Shown here piece after piece: positions 8,108 to 33,593 of a DNA stretch of 36,377 nucleotides. The stretch is taken from IMG/VR virus record IMGVR_UViG_3300025137_000114, positions 1 through 36,377 of that record. One strand, 5' to 3'. The position numbers and the translations under genes were made by a program. The notes under the pieces were generated by a model. That model made no database searches. It had not been told where the DNA came from and saw nothing but the letters and a program-made list of their open reading frames with translations. Positions within the stretch are counted from its first letter, which is position 1. Every line of letters starts with the position of its first letter. Source of the stretch: a virus.

Positions 8108-9933
8108 TGGATTTGATTACACTAGACTTCGAGACTTACTATGATAAGGACTACTCTCTAAAGAAGTTAACCATAGAAGAGTATGTACGTGACCCGCGCT
8201 TTGAAGTAATTGGCGTGGGTGTGAAGGTTAACAACGGATCAACAGAATGGGCATCGGGCACACATGAAGAACTTAAAGACTACCTTGCTGAATTCGATTG
8301 GGAAAACAGCATGGTACTGGCTCATAACACTATGTTCGACGGGGCTATACTGTGTTGGGTATTTGATGTTCTTACTTCTGTTTGGGCTGATACTCTGTGC
8401 GTTGCCCGTGCTTTACACGGCATTGAAGTTGGTGGAAGTCTCGCGGCGTTGGCAGAACGATATGGAATTGGAGAAAAGGGAACTGAAGTCGTCAACGCGT
8501 TGGGCAAAAGACGTAGAGGTTTTACCGAAGAAGAACTAGACGCGTACGGGGACTACTGTATTAACGATGTTGAACTTACCTACAAGTTGTTTAACATCTT
8601 TATGGAGCACTTCCCTAAACAAGAGCTTAAGGTTATTGACTGCACGTTGAATATGTTTATTAACCCGCTGCTGGAACTAGATCTTGGGCTGCTTGAGCAG
8701 CATTTAGTAGCGGTTTGTGACCGGAAAGACCAACTCTTAGTTGGGGCTGGGGTGAAGAAAGAAGATCTAATGAGTAATCCGAAGTTTGCGGTGCTTTTAG
8801 AGAACCTTGGTGTAGTGCCGCCAACAAAGATAAGCGCAACAACAGGCAAAGAAGCCTACGCGTTTGCTAAGACCGACGAAGGGTTTAAATCTTTACTGAC
8901 TCACAAGAACGTAGACGTGCAAGTTTTGGTAGCAGCGAGGCTCGGCATAAAAAGCACGTTGGAAGAGACGCGGACACAGCGGTTTATTGATATAGCTAAA
9001 CGGGGGCCGTTACCAATACCTATAAGGTATTACGCTGCACACACAGGTAGGTGGGGCGGCGACGATAAAATCAATATCCAAAACCTGCCAAGCCGTGGGC
9101 CTAATGGTAAGGTCTTAAAACGTAGTATGAAAGCTGGTGAAGGGTTCATGTTGGTTGACTGCGACTCTTCTCAAATTGAAGCGCGTGTGTTGGCGTGGTT
9201 GGCGGGGCAAGATGATCTGGTCGAAGCGTTTACTAACAAAGAAGATGTTTACGTTAAGATGGCGGCTAAGATTTATAATGTCTTAGAAGAAGAAGTGACT
9301 AAGGAGCAGCGGTTTGTAGGTAAGACCACCGTTCTTGGTGCAGGGTATGGCATGGGCGCGATGCGGTTTCAAGACCAATTGCAGTCGTATGGTGTAGCTA
9401 TATCTACCAAAGATGCGCGGCACATTATAAAAGTATACCGCGCTGCTAGCCCGAACATCTGTAAGTTATGGCGCGATGCTGGCACTATGCTGCATGAGTT
9501 GAGTCACAATAAAGCGGTACCAATTGGAGCGCACCCAGTACTTCAACCTCTAGGAGCAACCCAGTCAGTTTTACTACCGTCAAATCTAATGATGCGGTAC
9601 GACGGACTGAAGGGCACTCAAAATGATGGGCGCGTCGAGTATACTTATGAAACGCGGCGGGGGCCGACTCGTATATACGGGGGTAAGTTTGTGGAGAACG
9701 CTTGCCAAGCACTCGCGCGTTGCATAATCGCAGAGCAGATGCTGCTAATAAACAACGAGTACCCGCCGGTACTAACCGTACATGACTCTATCGTCGTGTG
9801 CGTCCCTGAGAATGAGGTAGATGAAGCGCAAGCATTTATAGAGCAGTGTATGCGTCACGTACCAGAGTGGGCTAAAGGACTACCGCTTGATTGTGAAAGC
9901 GGGGCAGCAAAAACGTACGGGGATTGTGAATGA
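8107..9933 (+). CDS. polA: Family A DNA polymerase with 3'-5' exonuclease
   Basis: The 608-residue protein has exonuclease motifs in order: DFET (D7, E9), NTMFD (D78) and YCIND (Y150, D154). The polymerase palm has motif A DCDSSQIEAR (D351), motif B R402-x3-K406-x7-Y414 and motif C VHDS (H559, D560). The residue matching Phe762 of E. coli Pol I is L410, the Leu form common in environmental phages. There is no 5'-3' exonuclease domain, as usual in phages. It is the likely replicative polymerase. GTG start overlaps the previous stop by one base; the stop overlaps the next gene in ATGA. Confidence 0.95.
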   Translation: MDLITLDFETYYDKDYSLKKLTIEEYVRDPRFEVIGVGVKVNNGSTEWASGTHEELKDYLAEFDWENSMVLAHNTMFDGAILCWVFDVLTSVWADTLCVARALHGIEVGGSLAALAERYGIGEKGTEVVNALGKRRRGFTEEELDAYGDYCINDVELTYKLFNIFMEHFPKQELKVIDCTLNMFINPLLELDLGLLEQHLVAVCDRKDQLLVGAGVKKEDLMSNPKFAVLLENLGVVPPTKISATTGKEAYAFAKTDEGFKSLLTHKNVDVQVLVAARLGIKSTLEETRTQRFIDIAKRGPLPIPIRYYAAHTGRWGGDDKINIQNLPSRGPNGKVLKRSMKAGEGFMLVDCDSSQIEARVLAWLAGQDDLVEAFTNKEDVYVKMAAKIYNVLEEEVTKEQRFVGKTTVLGAGYGMGAMRFQDQLQSYGVAISTKDARHIIKVYRAASPNICKLWRDAGTMLHELSHNKAVPIGAHPVLQPLGATQSVLLPSNLMMRYDGLKGTQNDGRVEYTYETRRGPTRIYGGKFVENACQALARCIIAEQMLLINNEYPPVLTVHDSIVVCVPENEVDEAQAFIEQCMRHVPEWAKGLPLDCESGAAKTYGDCE

Positions 9934-10604
9934 TGAGTATAGCTCCGTGGAGTTTCAGCAAGATCAAGGCGTTTCAGCAATGCCCTAAGCAGTTCTACCA
10001 TGAGAAGGTACTTAAGCAGTATCCGTTCAAGGAGTCTGAGGCCACGTTGTACGGGACGGCCTTTCACGAAGCTGCGGAGATATACATCCGCGATGGTGGT
10101 GAACTAGACCCACGGTTCAGCTATGCACAGGGTATGTTAGACGCACTAGACGCTAAGAAAGGCGAGAAGTTGTGCGAGATCAAGATGGGACTGACTGAGA
10201 ACTTAGAGGCATGTAGCTTTTTTGGTAGCGACGTGTGGTTCCGTGGTATAGCTGATTTAGTTATACTTAACAGAGAAGATAATCTAGCTTGGGTCATCGA
10301 CTACAAGACCGGCAAGTCAGCGCGGTATGCGGACAAAGGGCAGTTAGAGCTTATGGCTTTGGCTACCTTTAAGCATTACCCCGAAGTAAAGACTGTTCGG
10401 GCAGCGTTGTTGTTTGTGGTGAGTGAAGATCTTATTAAAGACCGATACACCATAGAAGACGAAGAAAGGCTATGGGGTGAGTGGTTAAACAAATATAATG
10501 ATATGGAACTATCTTTTAACAACGACACATGGAACCCAAAACCGAATGGGCTATGCAGGGCTTGGTGCCCAGTCCTAGAGTGTGCTCATAACGGGAGAAA
10601 CTAA
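9930..10604 (+). CDS. RecB/Cas4-like PD-(D/E)XK nuclease
   Basis: The 224-residue protein has the classical order: SKIKAFQQCPKQF at the N-terminus, TAFHEAAE (H46), GIAD (D109), VIDYKTG (D124, K126) and Q138 in GQLELM. Four cysteines, C18, C209, C213 and C218, sit where Cas4 and AddB-type nucleases bind a 4Fe-4S cluster. Such enzymes resect DNA ends. No CRISPR array or cas1/cas2 is present, so a replication or recombination role is favoured. Translation is coupled to PolA through a 4-base overlap; a second ATG lies at 9933. Confidence 0.85.
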   Translation: MMSIAPWSFSKIKAFQQCPKQFYHEKVLKQYPFKESEATLYGTAFHEAAEIYIRDGGELDPRFSYAQGMLDALDAKKGEKLCEIKMGLTENLEACSFFGSDVWFRGIADLVILNREDNLAWVIDYKTGKSARYADKGQLELMALATFKHYPEVKTVRAALLFVVSEDLIKDRYTIEDEERLWGEWLNKYNDMELSFNNDTWNPKPNGLCRAWCPVLECAHNGRN

Positions 10605-10858
10605 TGCGTAGACGCTACAAGCGCCCGTACAAAAAAGAATACCAACAGCAATTAGCACGCGGTGAACACGCTAATCGTATGGAAAGACAGAAGGCTAGGC
10701 GTGCGTTAGACGCTAAAGGCGTTGATCGTAGTGGTAAAGATGTTAGCCATAATAAGATGTTGAGCAAAGGTGGTACTAACGCTGATGGGTATAAGTTAGA
10801 AGCCCCCAGCAAGAACAGAAGCCGTAACGGCGAGAAGCCACGCACCCGTACCACATAG
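10604..10858 (+). CDS. Small basic HNH-like protein (84 aa)
   Basis: A very basic protein: residues 1-45 are mostly Arg, Lys and Gln. The C-terminal half has VSHNKMLSKGG followed by an Asn and SKNRS, resembling the His-Asn core of HNH endonucleases, where the usual wording is DH..PLSKGG...N....NR. Zinc-binding cysteine pairs are absent. It may be a minimal HNH nuclease or a degenerate DNA-binding derivative. It starts at the last base of the preceding stop (TAATG) and is the final gene before a structured 250-base gap. Confidence 0.5.
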   Translation: MRRRYKRPYKKEYQQQLARGEHANRMERQKARRALDAKGVDRSGKDVSHNKMLSKGGTNADGYKLEAPSKNRSRNGEKPRTRTT

Positions 10859-10881
10859 CGTACGTAAGAAGTTCAGACCGA

Positions 10882-10905
10882 GGGGGAGTTCCACCTAGCT
10901 CCTCC
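10882..10905 (+). other. Hairpin at start of SNF2 leader
   Basis: GGGGGAG (10882-10888) pairs with CTCCTCC (10899-10905), 7 bp with one G-U, around a 10-nt loop. No U-tract follows, so it is not an obvious terminator. It opens the structured gap 10859-11110, which has no convincing gene. Confidence 0.4.
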
Positions 10906-10911
10906 TATTAT

Positions 10912-10944
10912 CCACGTTCCCGTCCGTGGGGTCGAGTAGGCGGG
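10912..10944 (+). promoter_or_regulatory. Pseudoknot element A in SNF2 leader
   Basis: Stem 1 is CCACG (10912-10916) with CGTGG (10925-10929). The 8-nt loop TTCCCGTC contains CCCGTC (10919-10924), which can pair with GGCGGG (10939-10944) as stem 2 (6 bp, one G-U). Connecting loops of 2, 0 and 9 nt fit a standard H-type pseudoknot. A second copy follows 108 bases later with a different but still paired stem 1. Together they suggest a regulatory RNA ahead of the helicase gene. An alternative stem, GTTCC (10916-10920) with GGAAC (10955-10959), competes with this fold. Confidence 0.55.
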
Positions 10945-11019
10945 GCTATTTGAAGGAACCTGTTTTTCTTAGAAGTTTAATCTTCGCGTGTGGCAAAACG
11001 TAGAGAAACAGGGCTGCAA

Positions 11020-11051
11020 CACCGTTCCCGTCCGGTGATCCTAGAGGCGGG
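11020..11051 (+). promoter_or_regulatory. Pseudoknot element B in SNF2 leader
   Basis: Stem 1 is CACCG (11020-11024) with CGGTG (11033-11037), differing from copy A at paired positions while keeping base pairing. The loop TTCCCGTC is identical, and CCCGTC (11027-11032) can pair with GGCGGG (11046-11051). Loops are 2, 0 and 8 nt. The GGGGT at 11049-11053 could instead pair with ACCCC (11078-11082) in the downstream terminator-like hairpin, giving a possible switch. Confidence 0.55.
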
Positions 11052-11064
11052 GTTGATTCATTTT

Positions 11065-11096
11065 GCGTGTTGGGGACACCCCCTTCACGCCTTTTT
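11065..11096 (+). terminator. Terminator-like hairpin just before SNF2 start (attenuator candidate)
   Basis: GCGTG (11065-11069) pairs with CACGC (11086-11090) and GGGG (11072-11075) with CCCC (11079-11082) around ACA, followed by CTTTTT (11091-11096). The helicase ATG is only 15 bases after the T-tract. A terminator that close to a start codon is typical of attenuation, and element B can compete for the same C-run. Confidence 0.5.
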
Positions 11097-11110
11097 GCGT
11101 GGGAGCGTTA

Positions 11111-12646
11111 ATGCAAATTTTAAAGAACCGAGCAGTATTACTTAAGCTACGTGACCCGGAGAGGGTGACTAGTTTGATACCTAAAAGTAAAGAACTTACA
11201 GGAAACAAAGTAATAGTTAATTGGGGTGTAGATGAGGCGCATGTTCTTAAGAACTTAAATATTAAAATACCTTCTCCCATTGAGGGGCGTTACAAATGGA
11301 CAGGTAAGCACGCCCCATTTGAACACCAGAAAACAACTTCGGGGTTCCTTACCCTCAACAAAAAAGCTTTCTGCTTTAACGAGCAAGGGACGGGTAAGAC
11401 TGCTAGCGCGATCTGGGCAGCGGACTTTCTTATGAATGAGGGGCGTGTAAACCGCGTGCTAGTCATATGCCCACTCTCGATTATGGAATCCGCATGGCGC
11501 GACGATCTGTTTACTTTTGCTATGCACCGCACAGTAGATGTCGCTTACGGGGCAGCGGAGAAACGCCGCAAGATAATAGGCGGCGGGGCTGAATTCGTAA
11601 TAATAAACTACGATGGGGTGGAGATAGTCGCGGATGCCATAGCCAACGGAGGGTTTGACTTAATCATCATAGATGAGGCTACTCACTACAAAAACCCACA
11701 AACAAAGCGGTGGAAAGTTCTTAACAAGTTAATGACTCCGCAAACGTGGCTCTGGATGATGACCGGCACCCCTGCTGCACAAAGCCCATTAGACGCGTTT
11801 GGGCTGGCTAAACTTGTTAACCCCGACTCTGTTCCTAAATTCCAAGGTTCGTTTAGGGATCAAGTCATGCACAAGATCACCAACTTTAAGTGGGTACCCA
11901 AAGAGTCTGCCACAGATACGGTCTATCAAGCGTTGCAGCCAGCGATAAGATTTACTAAAGACGAGTGCTTAGACCTACCAGACATGGTTTATGTCAAACG
12001 AGAAGTAGAACTTACCCGCCAACAAAAGAAATATTATAAAGAACTTAAAGACAAGATGGTCATGCAAGCGGGTGGGGAGCAGATAACTGCGGCAAACGCA
12101 GCGGTAAACATGAACAAGCTGCTACAAATATCTGCTGGGGCGGTGTACACCGATGATGGAGACTCTTTGGCGTTTGATATTAGGCATAGGTACAAGGTAC
12201 TTCGGGAAGTTATAGACGAGTCTAGCAAGAAGGTTTTGATATTTGTGCCCTTTAAACATGTTATTGATCTACTCACTGAGAAGCTAATCCAAGATGGTAT
12301 ACCTACCGAAGTAATACGTGGGGACGTAAGCGCACCCAAGAGGACTGAGATATTTAAACGGTTTCAAACAACGAACTTACCGCAAGTATTAGTTATACAA
12401 CCGCAAGCTGCGGCTCACGGAGTCACCCTTACCGCTGCGAACACGGTGGTGTGGTGGGGGCCAACAAGCTCTTTAGAAATTTACGCTCAAGCCAACGCTC
12501 GCGTACACAGATCAGGCCAAGACCATAAATGCACGGTGGTACAGTTGCAGGGTTCGTTTGCAGAAAAACGCGTGTACGCACTACTAGACAATAGAATCGA
12601 CACCCACACAAAGATGATTGATTTATACAAAGAAGTGCTTGATTAG
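11111..12646 (+). CDS. SNF2-family SF2 helicase/ATPase
   Basis: ATG at 11111 (after GGGAG) is preferred to 11063, which lies in the terminator hairpin; the product is 511 residues. Motif I EQGTGKT (91-97), motif II DEATHYKN (188-195), motif III MTGTPA, and in the second RecA domain VLIFVPF, an AHGVTLTAAN motif V and QANARVHRSGQ motif VI show a complete SNF2-type core. The fourth motif II residue is Thr rather than the usual His. Phage members are thought to act in replication or recombination, as DNA translocases. No accessory DNA-binding domain is visible. Confidence 0.9.
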   Translation: MQILKNRAVLLKLRDPERVTSLIPKSKELTGNKVIVNWGVDEAHVLKNLNIKIPSPIEGRYKWTGKHAPFEHQKTTSGFLTLNKKAFCFNEQGTGKTASAIWAADFLMNEGRVNRVLVICPLSIMESAWRDDLFTFAMHRTVDVAYGAAEKRRKIIGGGAEFVIINYDGVEIVADAIANGGFDLIIIDEATHYKNPQTKRWKVLNKLMTPQTWLWMMTGTPAAQSPLDAFGLAKLVNPDSVPKFQGSFRDQVMHKITNFKWVPKESATDTVYQALQPAIRFTKDECLDLPDMVYVKREVELTRQQKKYYKELKDKMVMQAGGEQITAANAAVNMNKLLQISAGAVYTDDGDSLAFDIRHRYKVLREVIDESSKKVLIFVPFKHVIDLLTEKLIQDGIPTEVIRGDVSAPKRTEIFKRFQTTNLPQVLVIQPQAAAHGVTLTAANTVVWWGPTSSLEIYAQANARVHRSGQDHKCTVVQLQGSFAEKRVYALLDNRIDTHTKMIDLYKEVLD

Positions 12647-18237: not shown

Positions 18238-18271
18238 CTTACCCCCTTCCTCTCGGTGGGGGGTAAGTTTT
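18238..18271 (+). terminator. Intrinsic terminator ending the plus-strand genes
   Basis: CTTACCCCC (18238-18246) pairs perfectly with GGGGGTAAG (18259-18267), 9 bp with a 12-nt loop, then TTTT (18268-18271). The T-tract includes the stop codon of the converging minus-strand gene. On the minus strand the same stem is not followed by a T-tract, so it ends mainly plus-strand transcripts. A weaker hairpin GTAGC/GCTAC lies at 18207-18221. Confidence 0.8.
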
Positions 18272-21200
18272 AGAAAAACCCTTCTGACTCTACTGCCGAC
18301 TTCATAGCGGAAGATAACAGCACACCGTTGTGCATCAGTAGTGTGGTTCTTTGGTGAGATTTAAGCGACCGCCTTATTGTCTTATTGTTTATGAAAAGTT
18401 TAGCGTTCGCTTTAGCAGCGCTAGAGCTATTAAACTTCATCATATCATCCATAGCTTCTTTTACTGCTTCGCTGTCACCAAAACGCATGGCTACATAGAA
18501 TCTTTTAAGTAGTTTAGATCGTTTACTAAAAGCCGCGTCGTCCATACGTTTGGCTTTAGACGACTCTTCCATGCGGTTCATATATTCCGTAGGCGGGAAT
18601 CCTAAGAACTGAGCAAACAGTTCACCAGACGATACGTCTTCATACATGGCATCCCCGCGCCGAGTTAGCATACCGTCGTCTCTTGGGTAGCGGTACAACG
18701 CTCTGTACGCATTACGAAAGGCTCCGGGTAATATACTTTCAAACCCACGCTCACCATCGCCGTCGGCGCTAAAGATCTCGCCAAACCCTTCGTAGACTCT
18801 AATTCCTACGCTAGTAGCAGGGCCACCGAAGTAGTGAGCAATAGTTTCTTCTGGGGAGGGGTCAGCATTAAACCTATCTGCCTCGACCAACAAGTTGGTA
18901 AGTGCCACACGTTTGGACACATCTAACCCAGTTATTTCAGACAACGCACCCTTATACAACGTGTTGCTGTTAAGCGCCTTACGTACATAGGTTTCAAAAT
19001 CTTCTTCGTCATCGTCTGTAAAGAAGGTATCTACAATCGAACTAATTAAACCAAACAGCGGCATACCTTGCACACCAGCAAGCAGTAATACTGAAACATG
19101 GATTCCAGCAAGTTGTTTAAAGGCAACCCTAGCTTCTTTGGTATCACCGTTGTACTGAGCCTTCGCCCCCTGCCACGCGGTCTTAAGCATTTTGTAGTAC
19201 ATTGTAATGCCGTAGTTCTTATACATAAGAATTACACGCCCAATTCCCGAACGGGCAAATCTAGGCCCAGTCTCTAAGTTGGCACCACCGTTTATCTGTG
19301 TTGTCTCAAACACGGCTTCTTCTGCCGCTGCCGCTTCTGCCGCTGCACGTTCTGTAGGGCTTACCGTACCCTTACCTTTTAGAGCCTTATTTAAAGCTAG
19401 GTTGTACGCCGCCATTAAAGTTACTTGGCGGTTCATAACTTCCGCGTTATGAAACATAAGCGCAGACTGGTTTGTAATCCAATCCATTTTGCTTATGTTT
19501 CGCCCCGAAGAATCCACGCTTAGTGTTTCCGCTATAAAAGACGTACCCAACTGCCCACGTCTAGCCGATAACTCAACTAAAGGTTTAATACTGTTCAGTT
19601 GTGTAATCTGGTCTTTTGATAAGTTTAAATCTTCGCGGACTGTGTAAAGACGTTTACCATTACTAGATCGAGTTACCGTGTAGTAGTTATCAAGCGATGG
19701 TTGTGCCTTGTCTTGGAGTGCTGTTAGCGCGTCTTTAAGCTTGTTATTTCCTTTTAGAGCGGCCCTTACAGAGCGAGGAGCACGCGCATCCCCAAAGATT
19801 GTTTGCTGTGTTTGACTAAACGGAGTGTTAACAAACAAAATTGCAGCGTCTTTAAATGCAGCGTTCGCCTCTTTATACCCGTACCTACCTGCCAACATCG
19901 GATAAGCAAAGAGCGGTATCTGCGACAGGTTAACCAACGCAGAGGAAGCGTTAAATCCAATGGTAAAAAGAAACGCTGCGCGGTTTGCCATCTTAGCGTA
20001 GTTATCCACTGGCGGATTTATTGAAAACTGCCCTCGATCAACAACCTCATCAACAAGAACTTGGTCGTACTTACCAATCTTAGCGTTTGCTTTAAACGTC
20101 TCTATGTACGACCCAATCAACGCACTGTTTTTTATTCTGACGGTCTGTCTGGCTAAATCGTAACCTTTTGTCCTTACTGCCTCAAAAGCATCTTTATCAA
20201 ATCCTTCAGTCTTCTTACGTCTTTGCAGTCCTTTTGCAAAAGAAGACTCAGGCAGTGCTTGAATAAACAAACGCGTAATCTGTTCTTTTGTTTCTGCGTC
20301 TACATTTGGCTGCTGGTTTAATATATCTAGCACCTCACTGACAAAAGCAGGGGGCACCGAATCTCCGTTATAATTAGATTTATCATTCGGATCAAATATA
20401 TCTACTTCCAACCCCTCGCCATCGAAGAATTCCATTGCCTCTTGTCGCTCACCATTACTCTCATAGGAAAATACTGCGGAGTTGCGACCCCCCTTTTTTT
20501 CTTTAACCGCTAAGAAATAGGTACCTTTACGGGTAAGCGGGAAGTAAGGTTCCAGCTTCGATGCTTCTAACATCTTAGCAAGTAGCTCATTCTTTAAGTT
20601 CTTTCTTACGCTTTCGTCTACAGACAGACTATCAATCCTACCCTCTAATACTTTTAGTAGCTCCGCGTATTGGTTCTTATAGAAGTCCCGTAGCTTTACA
20701 TACGTCTCTTGGCCTTCCTTGTCTAGCTTATTGTATTCGTTCCGTAACCTTGTCCACTCTTTAAGTTTTTTGCCTGTGTACTCTGATGCGTCTTTAGTTG
20801 GATCTACTTCTGCTATGGTGCTGTCGTATACAATATTGTTAAACCTATCACTCATAGTTTTTGTAGCTTTATTGGCCCACTCTAATATGGGCAGTAAAGT
20901 TTTTCTGGTAGATGCTTCAGCCGCAGTAAGATCCCCCCGTTGAACATCAATTTGGTCTAGTATTTCTTGAGCGCCGTTCATTTGGTCGGATTTGGCGTAA
21001 TCAGCAATACTGGCGTTAGGCAAAAACCTAAAAAATATTTTTTTAGCTTTGGTCAAAGCAGGGTTTCCCGGCCCAGAAAATGCGCCTTTTATGTCCCGTA
21101 TTAGAGTGCTTCTTTTTTTAGATCCAGCAGCAGCTTCTGCGGCCTCCCTTACCGCTTTACCTACAGCGTTGGCGGTCATATAGTTAAACGACCCTGCGCC

Positions 21201-24200
21201 TATAGACTGAGGTGCTGGCGCTAACAACTGCTCAATTAACACGTCTAATTCTTTAGAGGCGTTTCCTTTTAGAGGTGGGCGCTTAAACAAAGCACGGATC
21301 CCATTAACAAACCGTTGCATAACATTAAGGCGTTCGCCTTTTATGCTAAACCTAGATAGTTCTTTGTGGAATGCAAGATTACCAAAAGCTTCTGCTACAA
21401 ATTCTTCTACATCTGTAGCGCCGTACTGCCCTTTCAGTTGTCCTTTTACATCTTTAAACAACTTAATAATCTGTGTAGCAGCCGCCCCCTTAGTGGGATT
21501 TCGTAGGGCTTGTATGGTAGCCGCGTGAGTCATCTCGTGCAGTAAAGTATGCACACTCATGGCTGCGGGTATGTCTTCGTTTATGACAATTGTATTGTCT
21601 AGATCTATCTCACCAAATTGACCTCTAGAATAGAAGCCATACACTGGATACCCATCAACACTTTTAGATACCCTTTTAGCAATAAGTTTTTCTGCTTCTG
21701 TAGCGTTCTCTGGTAAGTTTTTAGTTGTCCTAGAAAGTAGTACCTTAGTATCGCCCACCATCTTTGACAGCAAGTTAGCAATCAGTTTTATACGTGGGTT
21801 GGTAGAATTTTTAGCAACATCTTGTAGTGCCGCCTTTAGATCCCCCGCTCTTAGTGCAGCTAGGGTGGTTTCCGTAAGGGGTGCGGTCACTCCTTTGACG
21901 GGTATACCTAAAAGATTATTCTGGGTGGGGTCAATATTTATACCCGCGTTTCTTCCTAATACTTGATTTTCTGCATATTCTATAGCAACGTCTTTAGCGG
22001 CCCCTAGTTTTCTTGCTTCTAATATAAGCCTCGCTTTAGTAGCTCGCTCGCCCCCCTCCATCATTTCCCTTGCGTGGGTTATGGCTTCCTTCTCGGTGTA
22101 ACTTGAAGCAGCCGCATCCGTAGACTGTTTGTTCTTACCAACATCAATAGCCTCGCTAAAATACTTAAATAGGGTCGGGACTAATTTATTAGCTTTGCGT
22201 GAGGCGTTAAGCTCTTTCCGTTCGCTTGGTGTTATTTTTTCGGGGTCTAAATCACGATCTGCCTCTACAGCTTTAGCGTCTTTAGCAAGTTCTTTTTCCC
22301 TAGTAATGTTTACGCCGTCTACTACCTCATCCATAGATTTTTGTGGTGTGGTATCTGTATCTTTTGCGTTTAGTGATTTTCCTGTAATCATTGCTTTAGC
22401 AGCTTGAGATTCTTGCGAAACTCTTGCTTGCCTAGCCTGTAGTTTCTTAGCGGCTTCTTTTGGGGTAAAGGCTTTAAATTCTTCTTCCGGAACACCGTCT
22501 ATAAGTATTTCGTTACCTTTCATTACACCTTTGTACTCTGTACCGTCTTCAAACTTAAACGTGTACTCGGGGTAATCACCATCTGTATTCGTTTCAATTG
22601 TTGGTGCTGGCACTCCTTGCGCAGGAGTAATTCTGGCGGCAGCTTTTTTGTCAGCAGCAGCTCTTTTGGCGGCAGCAGCTTTTATTCTTTTTTGTGTTGC
22701 ACCGGGTCTAAGCTTAAGAATTTTTCGCTCGGATGTCGGATCTGTCACGGTTTCGGCGGCGGTTTCGGTGGCGGCAGTAGTATTAGCAGCAGGAGGAGGA
22801 AGAGCAGCAGGAGGAGCAGGAGGAGTACCGGCCCTACGCTCTTTTAATTTCTGTATCGCTTCGGTTCTATTTTTGCCGAGATACCCACCCGTAGGACCGC
22901 CAAGGTCGTTTCGGTCATACCACTCTGGTTTATTAGGTTCTTTAAATATTTCGTAAGAATCTGTACCAAACTCAACAAGTTGGTAAGGATCACCAGCATC
23001 AGTTTTCTTTCTTGTAATTACAGGTTCGGCATCAACCTCAGTGGTGTCATCGGAAGTAGTTTCTGCAACAGTTTCAGTAGCCTCAGAAGTAGTTTCTGCA
23101 ACAGCTTCAGTAGCCTCGGCATCAACCTCAACAGGTTTGGCACCAACCTCAATAGCATCGGAAGTAGTGGTATCATCGGAAGTAGTTTCTGCAACAGCAT
23201 CAGTAGCCTCAGAAGTAGTGGTAGCCTCAGTAACTTGACCTCTGTCAGCCGCAAGCTTGGCTTGTTGCCTTTCGTCTTGCGCTTTTATTTTATTTTTAGC
23301 TGCTTGTTTTTGTTCTTCAGTACTCGTTTCCGTAGTCGCAATAAACGCATTAACATCGTCAACATCTTCGTCAGTAAACCCTTTTTGGCCTGTAATGTCT
23401 TCTATACGCTCTACTTTATTTTTACGCTTGCGTTTTTTACTGGTAGCTTTTGCTCCTTTTTTCGGCCCCTTTTTTATGTTTATACCATCTATATAATCGT
23501 CTACTTGTTCTTCTGTTATTTCTTTTGGGGCTACGTTGTTTGCTTTCGCCAACGCAAGGCGTACATTGACCCTATTTTTTTCAGACTCTTTATCTATTAA
23601 ACCTAACTTGGGTGCCGTTGCGGTAGGTTCTTCAGCGGTAATTTCGGCTTGTTCTTCAGCAAGGATGCTTTGTGCTTCGGCGGAGCGCCTGTCCTGCGAG
23701 GATATTCTTTCTTGTTCTTTTTCTTTTTCTATCGCAGCAAGCCCCTCGGGGGTGCGGTCAAAGTCTCTTGCTCGCCTACTACCACCAAGGAACAAGTCAA
23801 GAAGACCACCAGCTATGCTGCCATACGTAAACGCTTCTTCAGCGCCAGCAAAGGTTTCAACAGTTGCGTCGTATTCTTTCTGGTTAAGGTTCTGTAAAGC
23901 TTCTGATGCTATTTCTTGTGCGCCTTCATACCCACCCGTAATCCCCGCGCTGTAGATTTTTTCACCGATGGTTTCGACTTTCTCTGGGCCTAGCTTATCT
24001 ACTAATTTATTCAGTAACGGTAGGTCTACAGATTTAACAAAACGGGCAATAGGTAGGATTTCTAGCAAGCCGATTGGAGCGCCACGTAGGGTAGCTGCGC
24101 CACGTTCTTCTTCAGTAGCGCCCGATTCACGGGCACGTTCACTTGCTTCACCAGCAGAGGCACCTACACCCAGTAATCCAGCAATACCTGTGGCGGCGAG

Positions 24201-24635
24201 AGTAGGAGCACCAGCAACCCCAGCAATAGCAGCGGGGGCGGCAATACCGGCAATGGAGCCAAACGCTTGACCTAACCCATAACTAAAGGACTCAGGGTCG
24301 CCCCCTTCGGGACGTATGTAATCCGCTGCGGCTTTAATTTTCTCACGCGCGGCTAGTTCGGCCTCTTCGTCCAAGATTGCGACTGCACCAAGGCTAGCCA
24401 TTTCACCAACATTAACCGCACCTGCACCGAAACCTGATGTTAAGTCTTCAAATACGCCGGTTTCTTTAGGCGCAGCATATCGGACTTGATTCTGCGCAAA
24501 GATTTCTCCGAGGTCTGGCTCTTCAGTCCTACGTCGCCTTACTTCCGCAGCAAGCACGGTGGCAGCTTCAGTGTCTCCCGCGTTATGCGCCTGCATAAAC
24601 GCATCTTCAAGTCTGGCTAAATCTACTTGAGCCAC
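18270..24635 (-). CDS. Giant virion protein with metallopeptidase-like motif (2121 aa)
   Basis: GTG start at 24635 overlaps the upstream TAG. The N-terminus (about 68-162) is rich in Gly and Ala with hydrophobic stretches. Residues 440-740 are low-complexity (Thr, Ala, Glu, Pro) and include a 33-bp repeat. HEMTH at 1033-1037, followed by an EEFVAEAF helix, fits a gluzincin-type zinc site (HExxH plus a later Glu), as in the MPTase-PolyVal domains of phage polyvalent proteins. The C-terminal third is helical, with a hydrophobic segment near 1850-1875. It is last in the late operon. A likely role is an internal protein ejected with DNA, possibly with proteolytic activity. Particle presence is inferred. 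Confidence 0.7.
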   Translation of the reverse strand: MAQVDLARLEDAFMQAHNAGDTEAATVLAAEVRRRRTEEPDLGEIFAQNQVRYAAPKETGVFEDLTSGFGAGAVNVGEMASLGAVAILDEEAELAAREKIKAAADYIRPEGGDPESFSYGLGQAFGSIAGIAAPAAIAGVAGAPTLAATGIAGLLGVGASAGEASERARESGATEEERGAATLRGAPIGLLEILPIARFVKSVDLPLLNKLVDKLGPEKVETIGEKIYSAGITGGYEGAQEIASEALQNLNQKEYDATVETFAGAEEAFTYGSIAGGLLDLFLGGSRRARDFDRTPEGLAAIEKEKEQERISSQDRRSAEAQSILAEEQAEITAEEPTATAPKLGLIDKESEKNRVNVRLALAKANNVAPKEITEEQVDDYIDGINIKKGPKKGAKATSKKRKRKNKVERIEDITGQKGFTDEDVDDVNAFIATTETSTEEQKQAAKNKIKAQDERQQAKLAADRGQVTEATTTSEATDAVAETTSDDTTTSDAIEVGAKPVEVDAEATEAVAETTSEATETVAETTSDDTTEVDAEPVITRKKTDAGDPYQLVEFGTDSYEIFKEPNKPEWYDRNDLGGPTGGYLGKNRTEAIQKLKERRAGTPPAPPAALPPPAANTTAATETAAETVTDPTSERKILKLRPGATQKRIKAAAAKRAAADKKAAARITPAQGVPAPTIETNTDGDYPEYTFKFEDGTEYKGVMKGNEILIDGVPEEEFKAFTPKEAAKKLQARQARVSQESQAAKAMITGKSLNAKDTDTTPQKSMDEVVDGVNITREKELAKDAKAVEADRDLDPEKITPSERKELNASRKANKLVPTLFKYFSEAIDVGKNKQSTDAAASSYTEKEAITHAREMMEGGERATKARLILEARKLGAAKDVAIEYAENQVLGRNAGINIDPTQNNLLGIPVKGVTAPLTETTLAALRAGDLKAALQDVAKNSTNPRIKLIANLLSKMVGDTKVLLSRTTKNLPENATEAEKLIAKRVSKSVDGYPVYGFYSRGQFGEIDLDNTIVINEDIPAAMSVHTLLHEMTHAATIQALRNPTKGAAATQIIKLFKDVKGQLKGQYGATDVEEFVAEAFGNLAFHKELSRFSIKGERLNVMQRFVNGIRALFKRPPLKGNASKELDVLIEQLLAPAPQSIGAGSFNYMTANAVGKAVREAAEAAAGSKKRSTLIRDIKGAFSGPGNPALTKAKKIFFRFLPNASIADYAKSDQMNGAQEILDQIDVQRGDLTAAEASTRKTLLPILEWANKATKTMSDRFNNIVYDSTIAEVDPTKDASEYTGKKLKEWTRLRNEYNKLDKEGQETYVKLRDFYKNQYAELLKVLEGRIDSLSVDESVRKNLKNELLAKMLEASKLEPYFPLTRKGTYFLAVKEKKGGRNSAVFSYESNGERQEAMEFFDGEGLEVDIFDPNDKSNYNGDSVPPAFVSEVLDILNQQPNVDAETKEQITRLFIQALPESSFAKGLQRRKKTEGFDKDAFEAVRTKGYDLARQTVRIKNSALIGSYIETFKANAKIGKYDQVLVDEVVDRGQFSINPPVDNYAKMANRAAFLFTIGFNASSALVNLSQIPLFAYPMLAGRYGYKEANAAFKDAAILFVNTPFSQTQQTIFGDARAPRSVRAALKGNNKLKDALTALQDKAQPSLDNYYTVTRSSNGKRLYTVREDLNLSKDQITQLNSIKPLVELSARRGQLGTSFIAETLSVDSSGRNISKMDWITNQSALMFHNAEVMNRQVTLMAAYNLALNKALKGKGTVSPTERAAAEAAAAEEAVFETTQINGGANLETGPRFARSGIGRVILMYKNYGITMYYKMLKTAWQGAKAQYNGDTKEARVAFKQLAGIHVSVLLLAGVQGMPLFGLISSIVDTFFTDDDEEDFETYVRKALNSNTLYKGALSEITGLDVSKRVALTNLLVEADRFNADPSPEETIAHYFGGPATSVGIRVYEGFGEIFSADGDGERGFESILPGAFRNAYRALYRYPRDDGMLTRRGDAMYEDVSSGELFAQFLGFPPTEYMNRMEESSKAKRMDDAAFSKRSKLLKRFYVAMRFGDSEAVKEAMDDMMKFNSSSAAKANAKLFINNKTIRRSLKSHQRTTLLMHNGVLLSSAMKSAVESEGFF
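23053..23211. repeat. 33-bp minisatellite-like repeat inside the 2121-aa gene
   Basis: Three near-identical 33-base units begin at 23053, 23086 and 23179, with the plus-strand pattern GAAGTAGTTTCTGCAACAG and a shared CAGTAGCCTC end. Partial units fill the space between units 2 and 3 and continue beyond. They encode variations of a Ser/Thr-Glu-Ala-Val-Ala-Glu-Thr-Thr motif on the minus strand, in a disordered region. The 33-base length keeps the frame, so copy number can change without breaking the gene. Confidence 0.75.
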
Positions 24636-27477: not shown

Positions 27478-28194
27478 TTACGCCGGTAACATTTTTTTAG
27501 GGTTAATTTCTTTACCTTGTTTTTTATTGCCTGTACGTTCTTTACGTACTCGATCCATCATAGCGTGTAACGCCTTAGCACCTGCATCAGAGTTACCGTT
27601 ACCTAAATGACTTACCACATCAGCAGGTATAACAAACTCACCATCGCTTAATCTAGCTTCTTGCCCACTGTCAATTCTAGCAGGTACTTTATCAGCCATA
27701 CCATCGCTACTACCATTTAAATAACGTCCCTCACGCATGGCAAGAATACCCCCTTGGGCCATCGTTACTTTTTTAATATCTTTTGGAGGCCGCGAGTCTG
27801 TTAGTTCTTGTTTGTTTATTCCCGCTAGCCCCATCGCTTGTTGTTTGGCTTTTGCACGAGCGGCTTGCGCGGACATGGGCTGCGCCTCTCCCTTTTCTGC
27901 AAATATAGTGTCACTAAAGTAGCGCCTCCCTTGCTCTCCGGGCCGTCTATTTGGATCTGCACCTTCTTGAGGTGCCGCTTTACGTGCAGGCATTGCCACA
28001 CGATCACGTACCGCTTCATACTCAGGTATCTTACCTTGGTACCCTACTTGAGGTATTTTGGTTTCGTTAAGCCCACTGTTGTTTACTAATGCAGACAACC
28101 CTAAAGCACCTACAGGGCTATTTAAAAGATCCATAACCCCAGAGCCAAGATCTGACCCCGTAAATTTGCTTGTTAAATCTGAAAACCAACTCAT
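27478..28194 (-). CDS. Virion-associated protein (238 aa)
   Basis: The N-terminal 40 residues are amphipathic with a hydrophobic patch. A middle AQGGI motif (146-150) and a segment with SDGMADKVPARIDSGQEARL and then LSDGEFVIPADVVSHLGNGN form a conserved-looking core of the type often seen in environmental phage virion operons. The C-terminus is very basic (RKERTGNKKQGK). It starts by a TAATG overlap with the upstream gene, so production is coupled. Structural role inferred from position and the shared motif. Confidence 0.65.
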   Translation of the reverse strand: MSWFSDLTSKFTGSDLGSGVMDLLNSPVGALGLSALVNNSGLNETKIPQVGYQGKIPEYEAVRDRVAMPARKAAPQEGADPNRRPGEQGRRYFSDTIFAEKGEAQPMSAQAARAKAKQQAMGLAGINKQELTDSRPPKDIKKVTMAQGGILAMREGRYLNGSSDGMADKVPARIDSGQEARLSDGEFVIPADVVSHLGNGNSDAGAKALHAMMDRVRKERTGNKKQGKEINPKKMLPA

Positions 28195-31100
28195 TATCTA
28201 TCTCCAATAAGCCGTAGTAGCTCTTCGTTTACATCTAATACCCCACCTTTAGCGAAACCAAAAGGTTTTCGCGGGGCTTGCCTGTTAGGTTGGCTGGGTT
28301 GACTAGGCTGACCAGCTTGTCTATTTACAGTAGGGCCGTAAGGAGAAGCAAACAGATTCTCCTGTTGAGGATTAGCAAACACACTATTAAAATCGTATAA
28401 GTAGTCTATCTTAGCAAGTTCGCCGGGTCTTGTTGTTACTGTTTGCCCTTGAAGATCCTCTGCTCCCATCAACATATTTAAAAAAGCGTTGTTTTTGTTC
28501 TGCTCTGTTTGTTTTTGGAAGTTCATTTCGATCTGCTGCTGCATGGCTAAGTCGCGCTGCTGCTGCAATTCTCGTTCTTGTTGTAGCTCTTGTTGTAGTT
28601 CTTGTTGGGTTTTAAACAACCCTGTAGCAGCAAATTTATTATCAAACGCCGTGTCTAGTGTTTGATCTCCTGCCATAACCCCCTGCAAAAGTTGCTGGTC
28701 TTGTATGTTAACAACGCCGTCACCGTTAACATCGTACCCCAGTTGTTCTTCTGTAAGTTCAAACGTGGCTGGGTCAGCAAGAGCTTCTTGTTGCGCTATT
28801 AAATCAGTAACAAAATCTACATCTACATCGGTCACTTCTGACGGAGGTTTACCGATTATTGCCGCTATGGTGTCAATCTCTCCAGACAGCCCTGTTTCCG
28901 TTTCACCTATCGCCGCAAGTAAATCTTCTTCGGTTTGTCCTATAGTGCCAAGCAGTTCTTCTTTTGTTAAACCTAGCTCTTTGGCGAGATCGTCTACAGA
29001 GTTACTTACATCCGCTACATCATCTTTTATTGCCGCAATTGCGTCTGTCTCTGCTTTAACTTTTGCCTCGGCATCTCTAATTTCTTGCGCCTCGTCTGCG
29101 GCTTGCTTTGCATCGGCTCTTGTCTTAGCTAAATATTCTTCGTAGGCGAGCTTATCGTCGGCTCTGACTTTGGCTTCGTTATCTTTCGCCGTGTCGTATG
29201 CACCTTTTGCGTTGCTAAGTTTAATTTTAGCTGCCGCTGCTCTAGCCCCTTCAACTTCTTTTAGCCTTCTAAGTTCCGCAACTACAGCGCGAAAACGAGG
29301 GCTATTATAGTTTAAAGTTTTTAATTCCGCTTCATACGCGGCTACAGTGTCGGTGTATTCTTTCGGTGTCTTTATAGCGTCTTGAGCGTCTTTGTAATTT
29401 TGCTCTGCGGTATTTGTAGCCGCTTTAGTTTCTACTAATGTGTCTGATTCCGTGTATGGGTCAGCTTCTACCTCTGACTCTACCTCTACCTTTGTTTCCG
29501 TTTTAACTTCTGTCTCTGCGGCTTCAACTGTTTCTTCTGGAGTACCTGCATCATCAGACCCGTAAGACTCCATTATTTTATCTATAACAAGATCGGCATT
29601 AACTGAGGTTTGCCTAACGTACTGCTCGGCTTCTTCTTGGGTTATGCTAATACCTGCTTCCGCTGCGGCATCCATAACTTCTTGAGAATCTATGTAACGA
29701 CTATCTACGTACGCATCTACTTGTGTATTTAATTCAGCATCAGGGTTATTACCTGTGTACTTGTTTAGATCAGCTTCGGTGGGTTCATAACCGGGATTAG
29801 CTTCTTGGAACGCATCTAAGGCTTCAGAATAGGTAGTGTACTGGTCGTTGAACGCATCATTTAATAAGCTAGTTTCCAGACCAGCAAAAGAGTCGCTATC
29901 TATGCCGAATTGAGACAGCGTTTGCCTAAGCTCTGCGTCGGTCATTGCCCCATTTTTAGCGCCTTCTATTGCTGCGCGTATTGTGGGAGACGTGTTTTTG
30001 ACTACGTTAGACAATACATCTGCGACCTGTATGCCAGTACCAAGACCCGCTCCAACAGAGCTACCAACTATGCCAGCTAAAATAGCAGAGGTGGCAATAT
30101 TAGCGTCAACAGGGCGAGTAGGATCTACTTCGTATAAAGCCACCTCAATTACTGCTTGTACAGCCCCTTCTTCAAGGAATTCTGCTCCGCCTTCCGTTGC
30201 AGTACCTACACCTATTTTAGACACACGTTCTATAAAACTATCTATGAATTTGGTAGACATAGATGTAACTTTGTCCCCAAACAAACCCTGCGCTAGTTCT
30301 TCTCCACCAAGAACTTTATCGCCTATAATGGATGTTATAAAACCAGTGATTCCTGCCTTACGAGCTACTGAAGTAGCGAACTCTTCAGCTTCTTTTATTT
30401 GTGTTTCTGATAATGGTATAGACCCAACCCCCGTAGCTTCCGCTATGCGAGCATTACGTTTTTCAAACTGAGTTATTTTAGCGTTGTAACTTTCTTCGTA
30501 GCCGCTTCTTGCTGCATCGCCCGTTGCTTCTGCACTGTCGCTAAGTGTTGTAACGTTTACAGCGACCATTGAAGGGTCTAGATTTTTTGCAAAGTTATTA
30601 GCTATCTCGTCACCAAATTTTCTAGCTACGTTTGCGGTTATTTTAGCTCCAGCAAAAGCAACGCCACCTGTACCAATTGCTATTAGCTCTGATGCTGCTT
30701 CCTTAACAATATAATCAAGACCAAACTCTATGGGATTTTCCGAAGCCGCACCTATAATAGCTTCACCGACCAATAACCAACTGTCTTTTGTACCCAGACC
30801 TTGCCTCTTAGCTTTGTCCCTAGCGCCTTGCAGTCGTTTTTCTATGTCTTTAAGACCTTTCTTGTAGTCTTCTGGTTTACTAGAACCTGTCATGTCAGTA
30901 ATAGCTTTTAACGTCTTACCAAGTTCGGTAGATCCGGGGTCTATACCACCTAGAGCAGCAAGCCCTAAAAATGAATTGGCTACATCAGCGCCAGCTTCAA
31001 TAGCAATAGCAGTACCTATAATCCAGTCATCGTCGCCTGTTTCTTCAGCAGCAGTTACAGCGCGTTTTGCTAAATCATATAACCCAAAAGCATCTTCAAC

Positions 31101-33593
31101 GCCGGTTTTATATAGAGTGTCTTCGTGGTATCTACCTGTAGTTTCGTCTACCGTACCTAATGCGCGTAGGTATGCTTCGCGGTCATCTCCAGCACGTAAT
31201 TCGTCAAGGGCAACGGTATCTAACGCACGTACTGCATCTAGCACGCGACCAGACGTATCCATACCTAGCTCTTCCATTACTCGTAGGTGTGAGTACCCGT
31301 CATCTCTAAGTTCTTGGTAGGCGTTAATTGCCTCGGCTCTAAAATCATCTGCCCCAGCGGAGTCTCCACCACTTTCTACATCCTCTCGGTGCATAGCTTC
31401 AGCAATCTGATCTATGGTGTTACCGACTAGGTACGCTCTATCATCTTTAGATAACCCAGATACTTCTGCCGAGGTGCCAGATTTATAATCAACACCTAAT
31501 CCTATATTTGAATCAAAGTCTGCGAGTCCAAAATCTTCTAATTCTTGTTTTACAGTTCCGTTATTAATAGCTGCAATGTAAGAATTGTAGTCTCCCCCCA
31601 TAAGTGTCCACCCTAAAGGCGGTTCTGGTACTACTGTAGAGGCTTTTAATTCTGTTAATGAAGGTTTACCTAGAAACGGTTCTAGGTTGTTTAGCGCTGT
31701 TTCTATTTGTTCAGAGCCAAGATCAAAATTGTCGGTTACGCCGTCCATTTCTAGTTTTAGTAGTAACGCAACACCTTCTGGGTTTATTGTGGGGTCTATT
31801 GTAGTTTGCGAAACACTGTCATATATAGACCCGTCTGACTGCACTGTCCAAATAGCGCTGCCATCTTCAAGAAAGGTTTTTTCTAAACCTGAGTTCACTG
31901 CGTTATTACGGTAATCTACAAAAGCACCATTACCAGAACTTTCAAAGTTATACGAATTAAACAATTCATTATTACTAAGTGAAGCAACAGCATCATCCGG
32001 TATCTCTGTACCACCAAACATGTTACCTAGACCATCTCTTGTACTACGTAACACGCTACCCATAGCCTTTAAGAAACTGTCTTTGTTGTACCCTGCTATA
32101 CCCCCACCAGATACCACATACTGTCCAAGACCCGTAGCCATAGCGGTTTCAAAGTCTAACCCTCGCGCTAGACCTTGTTGAGTTTTAACTAAACCACCTA
32201 CAAGAAGTTCTTGGTCTACACCTGCGCGACTAAGGAATTCAGAGGTAAGCCCTACTTTATCAAGAGCGGTTGAAGTAAGAGCAGGGCCAAACGCTGCTAG
32301 GAACCCTGCACCTACATTTCCAGTTAACGCACCTATACCTATCTGAGTAGCGGCGTATGCGGCTTGCCCTACTTTGTAGTTATTTGCAGCGGTGGTAGCA
32401 GCGATAGCGGCTTTACTACCTGCTTTTGCTCCTTTGGCGGCTTTAGCAGTTGTAGACGCTTCTGTAGCTAGATTTGCTAATATCTCAGAAGCAGCAGCAC
32501 CCGCCCCAGCAACGCCCATATTTAGAAGAACGTCTTTAAAGTCTCCACCTTGCACTGCGGTAGTAGCTCCAGCAACAGCAGCAGCAGCAGCGGCAGTTTG
32601 AGCCACACTATATCCAGTAGTAGCAGCGGTAGTAGCGGTAGCAGCAACAGCGGTGGTAGGAGCACCAAACACTCCTGCTTTTAACAACATTTGCGGAGCA
32701 TAAATTGCCGCAGCAACAGTAGCAATTATCTTTAATGCGCTACCTAGATCGTTGTCTTTTACTTCGTTGGTACGTATTTCACCATACGAAAAAGGGTCAT
32801 AGAGGTACGTAGACCCGTCTTTGGTCTGCCGCATAGGACTTACTTCGTACTTTGCATACAACGCCTGTAACATTGGGTCTGTGTTAAACGTCTTTACTAG
32901 AGCATCTTCATAACTAATGCCTTGCGTAGTCTGTAAATAGGCTACTTGTTCTGTAAGAATAGGCTCAATAAACGAATGAAATTCTTCCGATTTAATAGGT
33001 TTGCTTTTATCTGACCCACCAAACCTACCAAGTTTTTGTGCGGTTGGAGTAAAGTCATACCCGTAATACCCACCAAGTATTGTTGCTATTTCTTCTGGAG
33101 AGTCGGCAACATTCAATACCGCATAAGCGGATTGAGCTTCGTTTTCGTCTCTAGGTTTACCGCTGTATATATCTGTTAAATACTCAGGAGCGCCAGTAGC
33201 GTCCATGTATTGGTCTGAGCTTATAAGAGTGGATATGTTTGAGTTGGTATAACTACTAGCGCCTTCTCCACCTATTAGATCCATATAAGCAATCATGTCC
33301 GAATCGGAGAATGCTTTGTTAAACGCAGTGCTGTAATAGCCCGCTAACTTATCTCCATCGTTTACTTTCCAATAGTCCGCGCCTTTAGCTAAATCTTTTT
33401 TATACTGGTCAATAAACTTCTTTGTTGACGCAGCATCGTAGAAAGGATTAAACGCGGTAGCAGCACTTCTAGAATCAATTTTATCTTTAGGCTTAGGTTT
33501 TGAAACGCTTGTTACGGGGGCGTTATAGCGGTCTGCATTAGCTATAAAATCAGCTAAGTCTTCTTCAGATGGCTCATTAAAAGACGACTCCAT
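28194..33593 (-). CDS. Giant virion protein with dockerin-like calcium loop (1799 aa)
   Basis: Residues about 285-375 are Ala/Gly-rich and hydrophobic. Further amphipathic helices run to about 1150. Residues 1290-1570 are highly charged and coiled-coil-like. A DVNGDGVVNIQD loop (1621-1632) matches the calcium-binding consensus of dockerins and EF-hands. It is followed by a Gln/Glu-rich segment and a C-terminus with GFAKGG (1779-1784). It is probably an internal core, ejected or tape-measure-like protein. The start overlaps the upstream stop in TAATG. Confidence 0.65.
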   Translation of the reverse strand: MESSFNEPSEEDLADFIANADRYNAPVTSVSKPKPKDKIDSRSAATAFNPFYDAASTKKFIDQYKKDLAKGADYWKVNDGDKLAGYYSTAFNKAFSDSDMIAYMDLIGGEGASSYTNSNISTLISSDQYMDATGAPEYLTDIYSGKPRDENEAQSAYAVLNVADSPEEIATILGGYYGYDFTPTAQKLGRFGGSDKSKPIKSEEFHSFIEPILTEQVAYLQTTQGISYEDALVKTFNTDPMLQALYAKYEVSPMRQTKDGSTYLYDPFSYGEIRTNEVKDNDLGSALKIIATVAAAIYAPQMLLKAGVFGAPTTAVAATATTAATTGYSVAQTAAAAAAVAGATTAVQGGDFKDVLLNMGVAGAGAAASEILANLATEASTTAKAAKGAKAGSKAAIAATTAANNYKVGQAAYAATQIGIGALTGNVGAGFLAAFGPALTSTALDKVGLTSEFLSRAGVDQELLVGGLVKTQQGLARGLDFETAMATGLGQYVVSGGGIAGYNKDSFLKAMGSVLRSTRDGLGNMFGGTEIPDDAVASLSNNELFNSYNFESSGNGAFVDYRNNAVNSGLEKTFLEDGSAIWTVQSDGSIYDSVSQTTIDPTINPEGVALLLKLEMDGVTDNFDLGSEQIETALNNLEPFLGKPSLTELKASTVVPEPPLGWTLMGGDYNSYIAAINNGTVKQELEDFGLADFDSNIGLGVDYKSGTSAEVSGLSKDDRAYLVGNTIDQIAEAMHREDVESGGDSAGADDFRAEAINAYQELRDDGYSHLRVMEELGMDTSGRVLDAVRALDTVALDELRAGDDREAYLRALGTVDETTGRYHEDTLYKTGVEDAFGLYDLAKRAVTAAEETGDDDWIIGTAIAIEAGADVANSFLGLAALGGIDPGSTELGKTLKAITDMTGSSKPEDYKKGLKDIEKRLQGARDKAKRQGLGTKDSWLLVGEAIIGAASENPIEFGLDYIVKEAASELIAIGTGGVAFAGAKITANVARKFGDEIANNFAKNLDPSMVAVNVTTLSDSAEATGDAARSGYEESYNAKITQFEKRNARIAEATGVGSIPLSETQIKEAEEFATSVARKAGITGFITSIIGDKVLGGEELAQGLFGDKVTSMSTKFIDSFIERVSKIGVGTATEGGAEFLEEGAVQAVIEVALYEVDPTRPVDANIATSAILAGIVGSSVGAGLGTGIQVADVLSNVVKNTSPTIRAAIEGAKNGAMTDAELRQTLSQFGIDSDSFAGLETSLLNDAFNDQYTTYSEALDAFQEANPGYEPTEADLNKYTGNNPDAELNTQVDAYVDSRYIDSQEVMDAAAEAGISITQEEAEQYVRQTSVNADLVIDKIMESYGSDDAGTPEETVEAAETEVKTETKVEVESEVEADPYTESDTLVETKAATNTAEQNYKDAQDAIKTPKEYTDTVAAYEAELKTLNYNSPRFRAVVAELRRLKEVEGARAAAAKIKLSNAKGAYDTAKDNEAKVRADDKLAYEEYLAKTRADAKQAADEAQEIRDAEAKVKAETDAIAAIKDDVADVSNSVDDLAKELGLTKEELLGTIGQTEEDLLAAIGETETGLSGEIDTIAAIIGKPPSEVTDVDVDFVTDLIAQQEALADPATFELTEEQLGYDVNGDGVVNIQDQQLLQGVMAGDQTLDTAFDNKFAATGLFKTQQELQQELQQERELQQQRDLAMQQQIEMNFQKQTEQNKNNAFLNMLMGAEDLQGQTVTTRPGELAKIDYLYDFNSVFANPQQENLFASPYGPTVNRQAGQPSQPSQPNRQAPRKPFGFAKGGVLDVNEELLRLIGDR

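Follow-up and report, generated by a model that had tools for sequence, protein, structure and literature searches.

A two-unit array of candidate three-way-junction pseudoknot RNAs upstream of a SNF2-type helicase gene in a metagenomic phage

Background

Few structured RNAs have been described from phages that are represented by metagenome data only. Among described motifs, STAXI (RF01728) consists of tandem pseudoknots, usually two to three, found near genes for DNA-binding or DNA-processing proteins; its function is not known, and it may act as RNA or as single-stranded DNA (PMC2864571). STAXI is the closest known analogue of the RNA reported here, with which it shares the tandem pseudoknots and the neighbouring DNA-handling genes. 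The ssNA-helicase motif, reportedly described by Weinberg et al. 2017, is, going by its name, a structured nucleic acid linked to helicase genes.

The xrRNAs of flaviviruses, which often occur in duplicate, offer a parallel of a different kind. Each forms a three-way junction, pairs a hairpin loop with a strand located 3′ to the helix closing the junction (PK2, L3-S4), and shows directional resistance to Xrn1 and to the bacterial RNase J1 (PMC7603331).

Results and discussion

Location and predicted architecture of the two units

The window, that is, the whole stretch of 36,377 bases of an IMG/VR virus record that was analysed, carries two RNA units (A and B) in about 180 bases preceding a gene for a SNF2-type DNA helicase, which itself lies outside the RNA (Table 1). 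The protein encoded upstream is rich in lysine and arginine and is conserved at this position in SNF2-type phages. Each unit is a sense-strand three-way junction of about 65–100 nt: an outer helix, P0, encloses two hairpins, and the loop of the second pairs with GGCGGG just past P0, so that the junction is latched by a pseudoknot.

Table 1. Features of the array and its flanks in the window (alignment A1 and model R1 are described in the text)
Feature	Position	Strand	Evidence or detail
Gene for 84-aa basic protein, function unknown (upstream neighbour)	10604–10858	+	phrog_4590, E 2.3e-7
Element A, complete three-way-junction pseudoknot unit	10873–10947	+	R1 59.8 bits, E 4.1e-13
A, P0 5′ strand GACC (partner GGTC, 10930–10933)	10876–10879	+	P0 partner-swap control; 4/4 pairs doubly changed
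A, first hairpin GGGGGAG ... CTCCTCC, within P0	10882–10905	+	Sequence; weakest of the four A1 helices, 77.8% of cells paired
A, pseudoknot hairpin CCACG-TTCCCGTC-CGTGG	10912–10929	+	Stem 10912–10916/10925–10929, loop 10917–10924; sequence, covariation
A, P0 3′ strand GGTC	10930–10933	+	Sequence, covariation
A, pseudoknot 3′ strand GGCGGG (partner loop CCCGTC, 10919–10924)	10939–10944	+	Pseudoknot helix covariation; RNAalifold
Element B, second unit, first hairpin longer	~10953–11054	+	R1 31.4 bits, E 4.1e-6
B, probable P0 5′ strand AGGA (partner TCCT, 11039–11042)	10954–10957	+	Sequence; by analogy with A
B, first hairpin (arms CCTGTTTTTCT, 10959–10969, and AGAGAAACAGG, 11002–11012)	10959–11012	+	Inverted repeat; folding prediction
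B, pseudoknot hairpin CACCG-TTCCCGTC-CGGTG	11020–11037	+	Stem 11020–11024/11033–11037, loop 11025–11032; sequence, R1
B, pseudoknot 3′ strand GGCGGG (partner loop CCCGTC, 11027–11032)	11046–11051	+	Sequence
Separate conserved hairpin before the SNF2 ribosome-binding site	11065–11090	+	z −2.67; covarying stems in relatives
Shine-Dalgarno-like GGGAG (SNF2 ATG at 11111)	11101–11105	+	Sequence
SNF2-type DNA helicase gene (downstream neighbour)	11111–12646	+	phrog_62, E 2.4e-108

A preliminary description of this DNA had proposed tandem pseudoknots with covarying stems, a proposal that is strongly supported by the data below, but it had overlooked P0 and the additional hairpin that each unit holds. 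Direct reading of the sequence confirmed that the two loops are identical and lie 108 bases apart on 5-bp stems differing at paired positions, and that CCCGTC of the loop can pair with the downstream GGCGGG in both elements, a pairing that covaries in relatives. The case for P0 is weaker in B than in A: the model R1 leaves the 5′ strand of this helix unaligned and reports B as 10969–11054 or 10983–11054. The nested-folding energies of A and B were not unusual (z = −0.07 and −0.69, respectively), so that the evidence for the fold is covariation and not energy.

Another IMG/VR contig (L425, positions 9040–9175) has the hairpin and pseudoknot cores of both elements, identical in sequence and spacing. 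The array therefore did not arise through faulty assembly of the window record.

Relatives in viral and cellular sequences

Relatives were collected by two routes. For the first, 80 SNF2 relatives (75–83% identity) were taken from IMG/VR and their leaders were compared. These fall into three classes: some have the window-type pseudoknot (L152, L155 and L175), some a larger RNA designated type-1 (L126, L146, L197 and others), and in others there is no RNA and the genes abut. The leader of L123 shows the window type in a compensatory variant (CGCCGTC and GACGGC). For the second route, the pattern GTTCCCGTCC-N7-16-GGCGGGRCT was scanned over viral contigs and 257 Gb of cellular genomes, and was found in at least 119 viral stretches and in 111 stretches of the cellular genomes. 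Among the matches listed, the hairpin stem was present in 141 of 144 at viral loci versus 10 of 112 cellular ones, which places the element far beyond chance. A broad scan with a 14-base pattern returned mostly chance matches, but was the source of the first true relatives.

In total, at least some 70–110 non-redundant relatives were collected from IMG/VR, all of them metagenomic, and the true numbers are higher than those counted in the scans. Searching cultured phages by blastn with the window or the element gave no significant match for either the window-type or the type-1 RNA, and the element is absent before the helicase gene in the cultured phages with the nearest SNF2 helicases. Two of the ten stem-bearing cellular matches form a tandem pair in one contig (L453, JAAXIF010000089.1), which was binned as a Sphingobacteriales MAG. 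This contig is probably phage sequence; its bin might hint at the host, or the contig might have been mis-binned.

Covariation of the helices

In 85 distinct viral elements among the matches listed, the stem positions left free by the search pattern are paired in 94–99%, versus 36–46% in cellular matches, and A-T, G-C, C-G and T-A pairs are all used. P0 forms four perfect pairs in 74 of these 85 elements; combining each element with the partner strand of another gave 37.7 on average and 48 at most. The variants of P0 include GACC/GGTC, GGTC/GACC, GGCC/GGCC, GGGC/GCCC and TGGC/GCCA, among more. The pseudoknot helix changes as well: neighbouring units found by structure carry CCCAGC/GCTGGG, CTCGTC/GACGAG, GCCGTC/GACGGC and CCAGTT/AACTGG. 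Among elements selected without reference to the pseudoknot, all six of its positions are paired in 45 of 48, CCCAGC/GCTGGG and CCAGTT/AACTGG included.

An alignment of 50 elements (A1, with A as its first row) has 92.3% of its helix cells paired and double changes at 15 of 18 pairs, in a shuffle test that is not tree-aware. None of 500 shuffles reached any of the measures, and sliding the partners by one column reduced pairing to 47–48%. Double changes occur at all four pairs of P0 and at four of six pairs of the pseudoknot helix, 99.0% of whose cells are paired. RNAalifold selected the pseudoknot helix unprompted and reported no other, because the helices cross. The A1 elements were partly picked for having P0 and the pseudoknot, and the fairest tests are thus the selection made without the pseudoknot and the stem and P0 test on 85 elements. 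The bases flanking P0, UUA on its 5′ side and GAA beyond it, show conservation and no covariation, and an extension of P0 by these bases was rejected.

Homologues without compensatory changes would have spoken against the structure first proposed; instead, the stem, P0 and the pseudoknot helix were all found to covary. Comparative data of this kind make it almost certain that the element is a conserved structured RNA, and the covariation fixes its structure well enough for direct tests on short, defined sequences.

Organisation of the arrays

A covariance model (R1) was built from A1, with A in the training set and B outside it. The preliminary description had called for a covariance-model search of marine phage and metagenome data; in the window R1 recovers both A and B (Table 1) and has no other significant match. 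Over 100 array-bearing loci (100 sources, 0.83 Mb), R1 finds 180 elements. Many of these loci are near-identical, and collapsing them by simple identity alone left 66 distinct arrays, with one unit in 24, two in 31, three in nine and four in two. Consecutive units are arranged head-to-tail with gaps of mostly 1–6 nt, most commonly 2 nt. When 30 longer records were searched, 19 were positive, each with a single array, and no array of the R1 kind was found in the type-1 phages among the 30.

Comparison with known RNAs

No Rfam 15 family matched the window, the type-1 loci or the array loci, weak thresholds included, and the lone match, to a snoRNA model at E 8.3, is due to chance. As in H-type pseudoknots, the partner of the hairpin loop lies downstream, and both helices covary.

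Like STAXI, the units are often tandem (two to four in 42 of the 66 distinct arrays) and adjoin genes for DNA-handling proteins, namely SNF2 helicase, PDDEXK exonuclease, ERF, methyltransferase and HTH proteins, several of which were named by eye. In STAXI, however, an upstream strand pairs into an internal loop of the hairpin, and it carries CCAAUG, CUGAGAG and loops of UUCG type, whereas the present unit has P0 as an outer helix and pairs its hairpin loop with a strand lying downstream. RF01728 gave no match at E ≤ 10 in the window and nine related records; as a positive control, the same model matched 24 genomes in a set of 119 from one bacterial family, chosen around an Enterobacter record, with 18 above the cut-off. 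Membership of STAXI was rejected, since there is no RF01728 match and both topology and sequence differ from those of the true STAXI copies aligned. The ssNA-helicase motif was compared by name only, the scans of the window and its relatives with the whole of Rfam having given no family match.

With flaviviral xrRNAs the unit shares the topology, made up of P0, the pseudoknot hairpin and the pseudoknot helix. It differs in having no sequence similarity to them and no Rfam match, and in its place in the mRNA of a DNA phage and not in the 3′ UTR of an RNA virus; xrRNAs also have a pseudoknot at the 5′ end (PK1), of which no counterpart was identified here. This is a likeness of plan and by itself no evidence of a shared function.

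Judged by sequence comparison, the window carries a two-unit array of an undescribed phage RNA family. This adds a well-supported RNA of complex fold to those of metagenome-only phages. Together with STAXI and the type-1 RNA, it suggests that mobile elements repeatedly make use of tandem pseudoknots close to genes for DNA processing.

A possible sister design at the SNF2 site

In several related phages (L126, L146, L197, L205, L215 and others), the array before the SNF2 gene is replaced by the type-1 RNA, which contains two different pseudoknots and is present as two tandem copies in L215. It has the SNF2 site in common with the window unit, as well as P0, a hairpin, a pseudoknot hairpin and a GAAG linker. 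It differs in having the loop CTAGCCCTA in place of TTCCCGTC, and an extra upstream pseudoknot (GACGC-loop-GCGTC with ATCGAGT). The model R1 fails to detect this RNA. P0 of type-1 covaries (GTCC/GGAC, GTTC/GAAC, GCTC/GAGC, GCTA/TAGC); over 14 strand combinations, 98% of its positions are paired, against a mean of 80% and a maximum of 91% in shuffled sets. The upstream pseudoknot has 93% of positions paired over 25 distinct loop/partner combinations (shuffled mean 79%, maximum 86%). Type-1 looks like a sister design of the window-type unit, in plan if not necessarily in descent.

Coding strand and genomic context

The helices contain 78 G-U pairs versus only four A-C mismatches, which correspond to G-T on the other strand, and 43 of the 50 A1 elements have U-G at one and the same pseudoknot position. 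The genes preceding the array are co-directional with it in 47 of 48 loci. The G-U bias and these co-directional genes point to an RNA of the sense strand. They also speak against the array being a structure in single-stranded DNA, such as a replication origin or a primosome site, as considered for STAXI. One array per positive record, a place in the replication module, tandem repeats and DNA-handling neighbours would all suit such an element, but a wobble is the commonest pair at the pseudoknot position just mentioned, and the GC skew of the window tracks the coding strand alone and is unbroken at the array. The DNA reading is disfavoured and, in our estimate, quite unlikely.

The arrays sit between genes of replication or early operons. 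The gene that follows differs between phages, encoding a SNF2 helicase, an HTH-like protein of about 100 aa, a PDDEXK-type exonuclease, an ERF-like protein, a Dcm-like methyltransferase or a terminase-like protein, several of these names having been read by eye from the sequence and not obtained by HMM. At one locus (L333) the array meets the end of a convergent gene, and at another (L393) no sense gene is evident directly after it. With such varied downstream genes, and with these two loci, purely gene-specific control is unlikely. The array of L393 is immediately followed by a very A+T-rich stretch.

Pseudoknots before start codons commonly control translation, and a ligand- or protein-responsive pseudoknot before the ribosome-binding site could here control how the next gene is translated (or transcribed), and tandem copies would make the response sharper. 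Many arrays end 12–34 nt before a start preceded by a Shine-Dalgarno sequence, and the loop and pseudoknot sequences are highly conserved. On the other hand, the downstream genes are unrelated between phages, some arrays have a convergent gene, or no sense gene, immediately after them, and at SNF2 loci a second conserved hairpin lies between the array and the start. Such cis-regulation is a possibility that we regard as real, if doubtful.

The hairpin preceding the SNF2 gene

The second hairpin (GCGTG-TT-GGGG-ACA-CCCC..CACGC, followed by CTTTTT at 11091–11096) is significantly stable (Table 1), and relatives at SNF2 loci keep it with compensatory changes (GTGG/CCAC, GGGG/CCCC, AAACGG/CCGTTT). 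A hairpin of the type GTGG-ACAC-CCAC, or AAACGG-ACA-CCGTTT, precedes the SNF2 ribosome-binding site in most relatives (L137, L146, L155, L164 and others). In the sequences inspected, arrays before other genes have no such hairpin directly after them. The hairpin may be a regulatory site of its own.

The preliminary description had seen in it a terminator-like hairpin, and in the whole an RNA switch of the attenuator kind, in which the G-run of B has two alternative partners, its own loop and the C-run of the terminator. The hairpin, its T-tract and the SNF2 start at 11111 are indeed present, and the alternative pairing is possible in the window, where five T follow the hairpin. However, the terminator scan of the window did not list the hairpin, which falls short of the criteria of that scan, and the T-tract is not conserved: among 25 SNF2 loci compared (in two rows of which, L152 and L175, the wrong hairpin was picked) the T-run is mostly 0–3 and the C-rich strand is CCAC or similar. 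A C-run able to compete for the G-run of the pseudoknot is absent from the SNF2-locus relatives, and arrays also precede other genes. A conserved terminator with a U-tract and a conserved alternative pairing was thus found neither by the terminator scan nor in the relatives. The attenuator reading is largely refuted by these sequence comparisons, and we consider it highly improbable.

Possible function

We tentatively favour a role in cis, in which the array would act as a roadblock or stabiliser in early mRNA. The units would form compact roadblocks between genes and shield processed RNA ends from exonucleases; this end protection would set the levels of the genes before and after the array, and repeated units would add blocking strength. 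We prefer this mechanism because neither the genes before the arrays nor those after them are constant, some arrays lack a gene immediately downstream, and compact latched repeats suit additive blocking. The topology shared with xrRNAs, which themselves block RNase J1 (PMC7603331), was also counted in its favour.

Several observations count against it. CCCGUC/GGCGGG varies less than a pure roadblock would need, though most elements came from searches that fix this sequence, and its conservation could mean recognition by a protein or a ligand. An ORF start preceded by a Shine-Dalgarno sequence lies within 140 nt of 55 of the 66 arrays, a raw count with no chance control, which fits translational control as well. 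No equivalent of the second xrRNA pseudoknot was identified, and the conserved UUA/GAA flank does not covary. With many arrays close to a start codon and the loop sequence conserved, translational control by a ligand or protein appears nearly as likely as the roadblock.

An RNA acting in trans as a scaffold, decoy or guide, cut from the early transcript or made within it, is unlikely in our view. Its modules would be compact and self-contained, as observed, and the single array per positive record between flanking genes that vary on both sides would fit, but no promoter or terminator of its own was found around the array, which is always embedded in a co-directional gene block, and copy number and unit spacing vary.

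Returning to the roadblock, a bolder form of it would be that DNA phages carry tandem exoribonuclease-resistant RNAs, whose xrRNA-like latched rings would stop a host exonuclease (RNase J or a 3′-5′ enzyme) and so shape the early transcriptome, in convergence with flaviviral xrRNAs. This proposal, drawn by analogy, is a long shot.

Other genes of the window

On the strand opposite to that of the early genes, the window contains a gene for a 2121-aa protein (18270–24635, minus strand) with a match to a DarB-like antirestriction protein (phrog_10089). A second giant gene (28194–33593, 1799 aa) lies near it.
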